Below are positions 6,009 to 12,607 of a stretch of DNA of 64,000 nucleotides, in pieces (the first letter of the stretch is position 1; every line of letters begins with the position of its first letter). The position numbers and the translations under genes are program-made. The notes under the pieces were generated by a model. That model saw only the letters and a program-made list of their open reading frames with translations. It had not been told where the DNA came from and searched no databases. This DNA comes from Hyphococcus sp. (GTDB taxonomy: Bacteria > Pseudomonadota > Alphaproteobacteria > Caulobacterales > Parvularculaceae). The stretch lies in NCBI GenBank assembly GCA_028281665.1, contig JANQJK010000015.1:1-64000 (forward strand), read 5' to 3'.

Positions 6009-7571
6009 CTATGCTCCCTTGGGCTGAAGCGCGCCCAGAAAGCTGCTCGCTTTCGCCTGCTTGACGACGAGGATGAGGCCGTCGACTTCGACGACGCGGA
6101 TCCGGTCCCCCGGCGTCAGGGGTTTATCCGACCGCGCGCGCCAGCGCTCCCCTTCGACAATCACCCAGCCTTCATTGCCGTCCCAGTCGTCGACGACGCC
6201 CTCACGTCGCCGGATGGCTTCCGCGCCGATCAGGGGCCCGTGGCTTCGCGACCCGACGATGGCGAACAGGATGAATGCGAGGAACGCCCCGGCGACCGCC
6301 AGAATGGACGCAATGACGCCCGGCGACACGCGATAGCCTTCCGGGAACAACACGAACAATCCGAAACCGAAGATCAGAAGTCCCGCAAGTCCCGCGAGAC
6401 CGAAGGTGGGCGTGAACGCCTCCACAAGGACAAGAACGGCGCCCGCAATCATCAGCGAAACGCCGAGCCAGCTGAAGGGCAGAACCTGAAACGCATAAAG
6501 GCCAAGAATGAAACTGATGATGCCCACCGCACCCGGGAAGATCGATCCGGGATTCCACATCTCGATGATGATGCCGGTGGTCGCCAGGGACATCAGGATG
6601 ACGGCGACATTCGGATCTGCGATGAAACTCAGGATCTGCTCAAGGAATGTGGGCTCGATCCGTTCCAGCTTCAGGTTTTCGGTTGCGATGGTTTTCTCGC
6701 CTGACGCGACGGAGACAGTCCGGCCGTCGATCTGGCGCAAGAGATCGTCAATATCGTCCGCAACAAGATCAATCACGCCGAGTTCGAGGGCTTCGTTGGC
6801 GGTGACGGAGGCCGCGTCGCGCACGGCTTTTTCGGCCCAGTCGGCGTTGCGGCCCCGTTCCTCCGCGAGCGCGCGGATATAGGCCACGGAGTCGTTGATG
6901 ACTTTTGCGCGCAGCGCATCGTTCGTCGAAAGCGCCGCCGCCTCCTCTTCGCCGGCGCGCTCGGGCTGGTCCGCGCTGTCGTCGGCGGCGGGTGTTTCCG
7001 CCGTTTCTTCCGCACTCTCCGTTTCGTTCGCGGCGGCGTCTGTGTTTTCGTCGGCGACGGTCTCTTCTTCTTCCGCAGCCGCGGGTTCGCTTTCTTCTCC
7101 GAACGGATTTTCGTCGAGCGGGTTGTCGTCGCCGGACGGCGCGCCGCCGACTTCGACCGGCGTCGCCGCGCCGGTGTTTGTGGCCGGCGCCATGGCCGAA
7201 ACATGGGCGGCGTACATGATGTAGAGCCCGGCGGAAGCGGACCGCGCGCCCTGGGGCGACACATAGGTCGCCACGGGCGTGTCAGACGCGAGGATCGCCT
7301 TGATGATGGTCTTCATGGAATCGACAAGCCCGCCCGGCGTATCGATCTCGATGATTACGAGCCCCTGCCCAGCGTCCGATGCGTTTTTGATTTCCCGGGC
7401 GAGATAATCGGCGACCGGCGGGGAAACCGGTCCGTCGATGGTCAGGATGACGCCGGTATCCGCCGGGTTGCCGGCGCCGTTCTGTGCAAAGGCGGAAATC
7501 GCATAAAGCGCTGCGCCGAGCGCTGCGATGACCGTCAGGACGAGGAGCCGTTGTTGTCGCTGAACCTTCAT
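6009..7571 (-). CDS. NfeD-family membrane serine protease (ClpP-class), with long acidic insert
   Basis: About 520 residues from the Met at 7571; a longer frame reaches 7664 but its extra N-terminus is polar and precedes a clear signal-like segment. Order: signal/TM (8-29), ClpP-class domain from about residue 38 (VILTIDGPVSPP, IDTPGGLVDSM), nucleophile in SASAG (Ser113), probable general base Lys223 (AKVINDSVAYIRAL), a block of transmembrane helices at about 330-460, and a C-terminal NfeD OB domain (WVIVEGERWRARSDKPLTPG). Residues about 148-212 are an acidic Glu/Ala/Asp-rich insert between nucleophile and base. The family includes the archaeal STOPP protease that cleaves stomatin-type partners, which fits the slipin downstream. 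Confidence 0.9.
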   Translation of the reverse strand: MKVQRQQRLLVLTVIAALGAALYAISAFAQNGAGNPADTGVILTIDGPVSPPVADYLAREIKNASDAGQGLVIIEIDTPGGLVDSMKTIIKAILASDTPVATYVSPQGARSASAGLYIMYAAHVSAMAPATNTGAATPVEVGGAPSGDDNPLDENPFGEESEPAAAEEEETVADENTDAAANETESAEETAETPAADDSADQPERAGEEEAAALSTNDALRAKVINDSVAYIRALAEERGRNADWAEKAVRDAASVTANEALELGVIDLVADDIDDLLRQIDGRTVSVASGEKTIATENLKLERIEPTFLEQILSFIADPNVAVILMSLATTGIIIEMWNPGSIFPGAVGIISFILGLYAFQVLPFSWLGVSLMIAGAVLVLVEAFTPTFGLAGLAGLLIFGFGLFVLFPEGYRVSPGVIASILAVAGAFLAFILFAIVGSRSHGPLIGAEAIRRREGVVDDWDGNEGWVIVEGERWRARSDKPLTPGDRIRVVEVDGLILVVKQAKASSFLGALQPKGA

Positions 7572-10717: not shown

Positions 10718-10889
10718 TTGGAAGGTCCTGTCGGGGCTGTGTTCCCCCTGTCACAGGGCGCGGCCCGCCTGGCCGCGCCTCGGCTCGTTATTGTTCCCAA
10801 TGGCGGGATTTATCGTTAACATCTGATAAATTGCGCGCTGGGGACGGGCCTTTTCGGGCCGGGCGCGGGTGGGAAGTCGTGAGGGGTCG

Positions 10890-12173
10890 ATGACATCCGA
10901 AGTCGTGTTGATGAACCGCCAGGCAGTGGCGATGGCAGCGGACAGCGCCGTCACAATCTCCGGCGACCGATATCTTAAAACCTATCAATCGGTGGACAAG
11001 CTGTTCCCGCTGGTCGAGGGCCAGCCGGTCGCGGTGATGATTTATAACAACGCCGAAATCATGTCGACGCCGTGGGAGACGGTGATCTCCCTTTACCGCG
11101 AGCAGTCGCGGGGCCGGCCGCTGGAAACGGTTGCGGCCTACGCCGAAGATTTCATGGAGTTTCTGTCCGGCAATCCGGACCTCTTTCCCGCAGACCATCA
11201 GGACACGGAATTTTTCAAGATGGTCGCCGTGGTCTATACGGTGATCGCTGAGGAATTCGACTATCAGGTCGAAAAGTTCCAGCAATCAAACTCCGGCCGC
11301 GTCACCGATCATGTGAGCGCGATCTTCGAGTATGTGGTTGGGCAGGTGCATGCGGATTATCAGCGCTATCCCGACGACAGCCCGCGCGCCGACCTGCCCT
11401 GTTTTCCAGACGGTATGGGCGAACAGGTTCGCCGGCGCTATGGCGGGGAGATAGACCAGCTTCTGGACAGCCTCCTGGGCTCGCTGCGCAACGAATATGC
11501 GGGGCTTCAGGTCAACGAGGCGACGAAATCGAAACTGCGCGAGATCGGCGGCTTTGCGGTGACGAAAGACGCGTTCTTTGAGCACTACACGGGCGTTGTT
11601 TTCGCCGGCTTCGGCAGCCGCGAGAAGTTCCCATCCATGCGCTCCTATCTGACGTCGAGCGTCGTCCTCGGCATCCTGAAGCGCAAGCGCGACCGCGGCG
11701 CGGACATCAACGCCGATTCCGGCCCCGTGTTTCAACCCTTCGCGCAGGACCGGATGATCCGCACCTTTCTGACCGGCATGGATCAGCATTTGCGGATGTT
11801 TATTTTCTCTGAATCCCTGAAGCTTTCCATGGGGCTCGTTACGGATGTGGTCGGGCGCACGCCCAACCTTTCCGACGCCCAGCGCGACAAGATCTTCAAG
11901 GATTACAGCCAGAACAACCTCCAGCATGCGCTGCATGAATTTTTCAAATCCATAGACAATTATCAGTATGCGGTGCATACGCGCCCGATCCTGCGGGCGG
12001 TAAACTCGCTGCCGAAGAAAGAGCTGGGCGAAACCGCCGCGTCGCTGATCAAGCTGAATTCGTTCCAGCAGAAGGTCATGCACTCCGTTGAGACGGTGGG
12101 CGGCCCGATCGATGTTGCGGTGATCACGCGCAATGGCGGGCTTGAGTGGTCCCGCGAGAAACCGGAGCTTTAG
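10890..12173 (+). CDS. Proteasome/HslV-like N-terminal nucleophile hydrolase, long form
   Basis: About 427 residues from the ATG at 10890, chosen because GAGGGG lies just upstream and because it exposes Thr after Met removal; a further ATG at 10869 would bury it. After Met removal the N-terminus reads Thr1, AMAADSAVT with Asp17, and Lys36 in VDKLFPL. This matches the Thr1/Asp17/Lys33 triad and the A-(A/G)-D-x-x-(A/V)-T strand of HslV and proteasome beta subunits. PVAVMIYNNAEIMSTPWE follows, where proteasomes have the GxxAD turn. A later VFAGFGSREKFPSM resembles a second sheet of the fold. At 427 residues it is over twice HslV length, with a mainly helical C-terminal part of unknown role. No HslU/ATPase is nearby. 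Cytoplasmic; substrate unknown. Confidence 0.7.
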   Translation: MTSEVVLMNRQAVAMAADSAVTISGDRYLKTYQSVDKLFPLVEGQPVAVMIYNNAEIMSTPWETVISLYREQSRGRPLETVAAYAEDFMEFLSGNPDLFPADHQDTEFFKMVAVVYTVIAEEFDYQVEKFQQSNSGRVTDHVSAIFEYVVGQVHADYQRYPDDSPRADLPCFPDGMGEQVRRRYGGEIDQLLDSLLGSLRNEYAGLQVNEATKSKLREIGGFAVTKDAFFEHYTGVVFAGFGSREKFPSMRSYLTSSVVLGILKRKRDRGADINADSGPVFQPFAQDRMIRTFLTGMDQHLRMFIFSESLKLSMGLVTDVVGRTPNLSDAQRDKIFKDYSQNNLQHALHEFFKSIDNYQYAVHTRPILRAVNSLPKKELGETAASLIKLNSFQQKVMHSVETVGGPIDVAVITRNGGLEWSREKPEL

Positions 12174-12175
12174 AG

Positions 12176-12607
12176 ATGGCCGAGCGGTTGAAGGAAATTT
12201 GGTCCGGCTTTTCAGTGCAGACCGAGCGCAGGCTTACCGGCAAGGGCGTCGACAATATCGTCGTGCCGCACCGGACCGATTACGATGCGCTCGACCGGCA
12301 GTTTCTGCCTGAAGGCTATGAGGGGCCGGCGGAACGGGCCTTTGCCGCGCTGCGGGCGGACCTCAAGGCGAAAGAAAAGAAGTTCGGCGGGAAGAAACGC
12401 ACGGCAAAGCCCGCGCCGCAGACGGGAAGCCCCGGCGATGAACTGCTCGACGAAAAAGCCTGGGGCAAGGACGACCTGAATGTCGGGCTCCTCTCCACGG
12501 CAATGCGCGTGGAGCGCACGGATCTCGACTATCAGCGTTTTATGGCGTCCGACGAAGGCAAAAAGACGCTGAAGCGCACGAAGAAAAAACGCTTCGGTAT
12601 TTTCTAA
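12176..12607 (+). CDS. Small basic protein cotranscribed with the Ntn-hydrolase; function unknown
   Basis: 143 residues starting at ATG 12176, two bases after the stop of the Ntn-hydrolase gene, so translation is almost certainly coupled. No known domain is recognised. The N-terminal third looks structured (VPHRTDYDALDRQFLPEGYEG). The middle is Lys/Ala/Pro-rich and probably disordered (about 62-85). A conserved-looking block follows (WGKDDLNVGLLSTAMRVERT, then YQRFMASDEGKK). The end is strongly basic and closes with KKRFGIF. It could be a substrate, adaptor or regulator of the hydrolase; this is inference from gene order only. Confidence 0.7.
   Translation: MAERLKEIWSGFSVQTERRLTGKGVDNIVVPHRTDYDALDRQFLPEGYEGPAERAFAALRADLKAKEKKFGGKKRTAKPAPQTGSPGDELLDEKAWGKDDLNVGLLSTAMRVERTDLDYQRFMASDEGKKTLKRTKKKRFGIF

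Follow-up and report, generated by a model that had tools for sequence, protein, structure and literature searches.

How would a proteasome-like Ntn hydrolase reach its targets when the gene beside it codes for a small basic protein in place of an AAA+ unfoldase? This question is raised by a two-gene locus of Hyphococcus sp. (Alphaproteobacteria; Parvularculaceae), which lies in the 64,000 nucleotides analysed here, positions 1 to 64,000 of contig JANQJK010000015.1 (assembly GCA_028281665.1), hereafter the window. Its features, in window positions, are the following:

10890..12173, + strand, gene of the proteasome-like Ntn hydrolase (the enzyme), 427 aa, fits family PMI-4; ATG at 10890, stop at 12173
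12176..12607, + strand, partner gene, 143 aa; product basic, with helical segments and without a stable predicted fold
10881..10886, + strand, GAGGGG, by its sequence probably the ribosome-binding site that serves the enzyme gene, retained in several congeners
10893..10895, + strand, codon of Thr1 (Thr2 of the precursor), the predicted nucleophile; 84/84 rows of alignment A2
10941..10943, + strand, codon of Asp17 (precursor Asp18); 84/84 rows of A2
10998..11000, + strand, codon of Lys36 (precursor Lys37), equivalent of proteasome Lys33; 84/84 rows of A2
11190..11564, + strand, first helical insertion of the enzyme, residues ~101-225, after helices H1/H2, from the secondary structure of the model
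11874..12008, + strand, second helical insertion, residues ~329-373, between H3 and H4, from the secondary structure of the model
12096..12104, + strand, Val-Gly-Gly (403-405), ahead of the final two strands of the enzyme; 84/84 rows of A2
12584..12604, + strand, C-terminal tail of the partner, KKRFGIF; terminal Phe in 44/45 host-family partners

Organization of the locus

The stop codon of the enzyme gene and the start of the partner gene are separated by 2 bases. As the start of the enzyme, the ATG at 10890, which a first-pass annotation made from the letters alone had also preferred, is favoured over a GTG at 10869 because it opens a conserved MTSE and closely follows GAGGGG, and because GTG occupies the 10869 position in 0/15 relatives compared. 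Eight flanking ORFs were scanned; they include threonine ammonia-lyase, a member of the YdiU/SelO family, prephenate dehydratase, an enoyl-CoA hydratase type, NAD diphosphatase, the clamp-loader ATPase DnaX, a cytochrome c-like protein that falls under the family cut-off, and one ORF without a match. Consistent with the first description of the locus, no AAA+ unfoldase gene was recognised among these eight ORFs, and no proteasome subunit or ATPase gene adjoins the enzyme. Both genes are under purifying selection, with Ka/Ks of 0.023-0.054 for the enzyme and 0.078-0.123 for the faster-evolving partner (three comparisons; the ratios are rough given that Ks is high, up to 2.0).

Active site and fold of the enzyme

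As read from the sequence, removal of the initial Met is predicted to expose Thr1, and a start of this kind would need no propeptide; in the mature numbering the site consists of Thr 1, Asp 17 and Lys 36. Alignment A2 brings together the window enzyme and 83 proteins out of the 95 non-redundant ones that the collection loci supplied (L021-L029 were left out), at 95% to 22% identity to the window enzyme. The three residues, put forward earlier from the window sequence, are invariant in all 84 rows, as are Met50, Gly235, Gly240, Gly242 and Val403-Gly-Gly405 (precursor numbering). Met-Thr with Asp at the matching spacing is found in 206 of the 209 loci that carry the enzyme gene; these loci include duplicates, and represent 166 distinct sequences, 164 of which start with Met-Thr. 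The exceptions are L073, which has masked bases, L106, where the contig end truncates the gene, and L127, in which Met-Thr-Ala occurs just upstream in a different frame. Asp was part of one of the two patterns used in the collection search and is a given for the loci found by that pattern; Thr2 and Lys37 were in neither. A stretch that may hold the equivalent of the oxyanion-hole Gly47 reads MIYNNA in the window enzyme and MIYGNA or similar in several relatives. Three divergent relatives outside A2 (L026, L028 and L029) keep Met-Thr, the Asp and a nearby Lys, have an altered C-terminal Gly-Gly, and may form a separate subfamily; their partners are devoid of the tail described below.

An AlphaFold2 model of the enzyme, built on A2, reached a pLDDT of 89.1 and a pTM of 0.85. 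A Foldseek search of the PDB at E<=0.001 returned 31 matches, all 31 of them proteasome entries with probability 1.00, which cover approximately the whole enzyme with TM-scores (by target length) of 0.40-0.51; we attribute the high global rmsd of about 20 A to the two insertions. By this model the enzyme has the alpha-beta-beta-alpha, proteasome-type Ntn fold that had been suspected, with helices 62-73 and 81-93 in the H1/H2 region and terminal strands at 407-413 and 417-422. A helical C-terminal half had also been described: the extra helices are there, placed in two insertions within the Ntn core and not in a C-terminal half. Against viral models, no match reached E<=0.001 (best 1.6e-3), and one of the next ones was named as a proteasome subunit.

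Sequence searches gave much weaker evidence than the fold. Pfam Proteasome matches 8/84 family members (best E 2.4e-4), a profile search found 1pma_B weakly (E 0.0026 over 18 residues), and the profile comparison with the HslV of the same genome was also weak (E 0.095, probability 0.6%). For both window proteins, Pfam, NCBIfam and the 2023 PADLOC library yielded nothing over the cut-off, the only trace being DUF6853 at E 0.077; PHROGs yielded only phrog_5990, of unknown function, and the direct PDB sequence search two weak beta-glucosidase matches. Profile matches to cullin and to designed helices were set aside, as they look like spurious helical matches.

The enzyme belongs very probably to a published family

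Among 22 proteasome-like families listed by Fuchs, Alva and Lupas (2021; PMC8665760) is PMI-4 (PMI, proteasome homolog with multiple insertions), in which long insertions follow H1/H2 and separate H3 from H4, and which is the only listed PMI group with phages and with cyanobacteria. The window enzyme resembles PMI-4 as given in the consulted part of that survey in its proteasome-like core, in both insertion sites and in the absence of an AAA+ partner, and its family likewise extends to many phyla, Euryarchaeota (here one archaeal locus, L127) and phages. Judged by these features, the enzyme is very probably a member of PMI-4, whose representative is HDY66466.1; the small group PMI-3 has both insertion sites as well, and only the narrower distribution listed for it separates the two. 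The family has therefore very probably been in print since 2021, so that "undescribed", as the locus was first labelled, does not apply to the enzyme. The survey came upon no genomic context pointing to a particular function, and in the part of it consulted a partner gene or context is not reported (PMC8665760). By titles and abstracts, this is the only paper in the literature searched that treats the enzyme family; neither the recurrent partner nor its tail turned up in that literature, subscription journals lying mostly outside the search. GiPD474, which PMC12724215 describes as having an ATPase domain, was rejected as a member of the family.

The enzyme shares with HslV the Thr1, Asp17 and Lys33-type site; in contrast, the HslV of the same genome is a protein of 190 aa (as listed) encoded beside HslU, and this true HslV-HslU pair is located on contig C5 while the window is on contig C7, which supports the earlier statement that the two are distinct. 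The 20S proteasome beta subunit gives the best fold matches (probability 1.00), but the enzyme has two large insertions. Anbu is recognised by a C-terminal helix H5, whereas the enzyme model ends in strands. Connectase, a proteasome-like relative with target-specific chemistry, is a ligase; as far as the survey consulted describes it, it is devoid of H1/H2 and has an insertion between S3 and S4, unlike the enzyme, which has H1/H2 (PMC8665760).

A small partner gene recurs downstream of the enzyme

From the 209 loci with an enzyme gene, 202 usable enzymes were obtained, which were reduced to 75 below 70% identity; the sequence downstream was long enough in 70 of these (the exceptions are L041, L043, L045, L148 and L153). 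A partner was defined as an ORF of 33-190 aa led by a Shine-Dalgarno (SD) sequence and starting from -40 to +40 of the enzyme stop, and control genes were drawn from the same loci. Such an ORF follows the enzyme in 61/70 non-redundant loci as compared with 65/272 control genes (Fisher p 1.4e-22, a value that is too small, since the 70 loci are still related). For SD-led ORFs of up to 80 aa the counts were 45/70 and 27/272, for small ORFs with or without an SD sequence 66/70 and 114/272, and under a first, stricter rule 49/70 and 46/270; the looser criteria for partner and terminator were chosen after inspection of the data, and the same rules were applied to the controls. Four of the 70 loci have no partner candidate (L048, L103, where a candidate lies 50 bases away, L130 and L155). 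A stem-loop terminator is present directly downstream of the partner in 25/66 cases versus 7/272 control stops, and within 90 bases after the enzyme stop in none of the 70 loci. Transcription units often end past the partner, and the locus is a two-gene operon; the dedicated small partner supposed from the window alone is a recurrent feature of the family.

The host partner was predicted without a stable fold (pLDDT 69.2, pTM 0.25), its conserved residues are distributed throughout the protein in the host family, and Pfam and NCBIfam gave it no match to an ATPase family. Across branches, sequence homology between partners does not rise above shuffles, as would be the case if the small ORF were merely a translationally coupled neighbour, functionally unrelated to the enzyme. 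This is the least probable of the readings weighed here. Against it stand the enrichment over control genes, the terminators placed after the partner, the persistence of the pair in prophages where it stands alone, and a Ka/Ks that stays below 1 in the partner pairs compared, from host and phage, by which the partner ORFs look like real genes.

The operon, which pairs the enzyme with a single small and largely unstructured protein, could also be taken to encode an enzyme and its substrate, the partner being a small precursor cut or ligated at a short motif in the manner of connectase, for which the survey, so far as consulted, provides the precedent (PMC8665760). The tail conserved in chromosomal lineages would fit this scheme. 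However, a motif common to all partners was not found, and conservation across the whole of the host-family partner suggests more than a cleavage site; we regard this reading as distinctly unlikely. An aromatic-Pro motif, recurrent in the partners by eye, failed to beat shuffles.

Distribution and lineages of the pair

By its best named relatives, the host is a Marinicaulis-like member of Parvularculaceae. The enzyme, at 65% identity or more, is present in 56/60 host-family genomes (the window's own included; one copy is split by contig ends). The other four are G042, which is 66% complete, G050, which retains an end of the partner at the edge of a contig, and two genomes that look truly without it, G055 and G057, the latter having a distant copy only. 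The partner was found in 56/60 host-family genomes and in 0/40 other genomes searched. Both genes occur in 55/60, always on the same contig and strand and less than 70 bases apart, which answers positively the early suggestion that there would be genomes keeping the two adjacent. Since SelO lies upstream of the pair in many relatives, the pair is taken as a vertically kept chromosomal unit. Class-wide, the pair was counted in 16/385 genomes (the window's own included); it is near-core in Parvularculaceae and sporadic elsewhere.

A FastTree phylogeny of 75 enzymes, rooted at the midpoint, contains a mobile branch (support 0.985) whose partners measure 34-99 aa, with nearly all of them under 80, whereas in the alphaproteobacterial lineages outside it, the host family included, partners have about 90-194 aa; partner size tracks the enzyme tree. 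The partner in L108 has 119 aa. Besides its chromosomal copy, the host-family genome G052 carries a second, distant one that belongs to the mobile branch and is accompanied by a partner of 57 aa (L024 4975-6327, reverse strand).

Chromosomal alphaproteobacterial partners mostly end in a basic-aromatic tail, of the type KRFGIF or KFLGLF in the host family and RRRSWLGRLFGR-like in other alphaproteobacterial lineages. A pattern written after inspecting the tails fits 44/45 host-family partners and 20/26 other alphaproteobacterial partners of that kind, versus 3/49 short partners, 4/698 background ORFs and 64/3300 shuffles. The first-pass annotation had compared KKRFGIF with the SRFIL end of HslU; this likeness is loose, as the HslU of the same genome ends in SKYIL, and partner tails are closer to the C-terminus of MinD, as exemplified by RRGLVARLFGH (L112) and RKGLLSRLFGGG of an alphaproteobacterial MinD. 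The likeness is that of a short tail alone, and the comparison was confined to it; the MinD tail is a membrane-targeting anchor. Two of three alphaproteobacterial MinD tails fit the pattern. In a helical-moment test, 3/23 and 3/45 partner tails gave p<=0.05, and the MinD controls behaved likewise (0/3). The enzyme itself has an aromatic-basic C-terminal extension in 54/58 members of the mobile branch and in 0/17 outside it. Read at the level of sequence, these tails and the extension are a lead, not a proof, for membrane or target tethering.

A free, conserved C-terminus of the host-family partner, together with Thr1/Asp17/Lys36 and the Ntn fold of the enzyme, would also suit a compartmental degradative protease on which the partner docks through its tail like HslU or the HbYX activators. 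Against this, according to the part of the survey consulted, insertions at both sites could block ring or double-ring assembly, and the first might alternatively swing outwards (PMC8665760), which also makes doubtful the self-compartmentalising enzyme imagined at the outset; in addition, the partner is without an ATPase family match and the tail is found in so few short partners. We consider this reading very unlikely.

Proposed mechanism

We tentatively favour a putative mechanism in which the Ntn hydrolase is tethered or activated by its dedicated small partner, which replaces an AAA+ unfoldase. Met removal would expose Thr1, which would then attack amide bonds of one or a few specific targets, while the two helical insertions would keep the enzyme from closing into a double ring. 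By itself largely unstructured, the partner would fold on the enzyme and either activate it or bring it to the target, and in the chromosomal lineages of Alphaproteobacteria the complex would stay at the inner membrane by means of the partner's basic-aromatic tail. Targeting, which elsewhere is the job of HslU or another AAA+ ring, would be done by the partner, without unfolding. In Parvularculaceae the pair would serve a near-core function, and in prophages and satellites it would be an accessory gene. As the partner classes have no homology above shuffles, a single shared mechanism is an assumption. If the partner does target the enzyme without ATP, this would be a different route to specificity for a proteasome-fold enzyme; the recurrent operon partner gives a first handle on the function of PMI-4 and makes it testable by co-expression.

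Mobile copies and their surroundings

Relatives of the enzyme were detected in 13/50,697 phage records, in 10/72,556 plasmid records and, with one distant blastn query, in 22/5426 E. coli genomes; a viral contig collection provided 159 stretches with relatives, of which 80 were kept. Some copies are terminal in streptococcal prophage and satellite records, and others lie among late genes. Among the ORFs closest upstream of the enzyme in 44 viral loci, 9 match HTH_3 and 4 the repressor peptidase family Peptidase_S24 (the tallies overlap); lysis-type domains are the next recurrent kind, with 1-2 each. Two forms were seen in E. coli: in one, the enzyme follows an HTH gene, which we infer to be a repressor and which lies opposite YdaS/YdaT-type genes near recE/recT; in the other, it stands alone on the opposite strand between the Q antiterminator and methyltransferase genes. 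Sites like these (record ends, the late region, positions after the repressor) often host lysogen-expressed accessory genes, and the prophage and satellite copies are probably expressed in the lysogen.

The pair could then be a lysogen-expressed defence or toxin-antitoxin-like module, in which the partner would keep the hydrolase inactive until phage infection frees it; cleavage of a host or phage protein would halt the infection, and the Parvularculaceae copy would have been domesticated. The HTH_3 and Peptidase_S24 genes upstream, the placement in E. coli prophages, the position of enzyme and partner at the end of satellite records L043 and L045, the faster evolution of the partners, and the islands that some rhizobial copies share with multiubiquitin/ThiF genes are all in line with this reading. 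PADLOC, however, matched neither of the two window proteins, and a scan of 125/169 neighbours for defence systems gave only scattered matches, such as a single PDC-M62A and a single PtuA; in the host family, the near-core presence and the low Ka/Ks fit better with a housekeeping role. We see it as a possibility on the unlikely side, and one that the prophage and satellite copies, some of them in E. coli, make directly testable. A further-reaching version of the tethered or activated hydrolase would make the pair a two-component proteasome-like machine of a new class. A small non-ATPase adaptor, anchored to the membrane in chromosomal lineages, would take the place of the AAA+ unfoldase. The pair would be a near-core function for one bacterial family; in prophages and phage satellites it would act as a module for defence or exclusion, expressed in the lysogen and, in some rhizobia, located next to genes of ubiquitin-like conjugation. 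Taken as a whole, this version is unlikely.

After two of the E. coli prophage enzymes, the partner ORFs (L213 10308-10457 and L214 9198-9302) are unannotated in RefSeq; by eye, both are flanked by a ribosome site and a terminator-like hairpin.

On rhizobial plasmids, multiubiquitin, ThiF E1 and DUF6527 genes lie ~1-4.5 kb from the enzyme in two arrangements (L048 2733-4799, L049 7671-11157, L050 7699-11188 and L210 8687-12203), and in Rhizobium loci a Clp protease subunit joins the multiubiquitin/ThiF genes. Multiubiquitin relatives occur in 161/72,556 plasmid records, but of the 10 records with the enzyme at least 5 have them next to it, four of those five being close relatives. In L049, the enzyme is separated from the multiubiquitin operon by a gene at 6396-7213, which by eye resembles an ADP-ribosyltransferase-type toxin, together with an HTH gene and a small gene.
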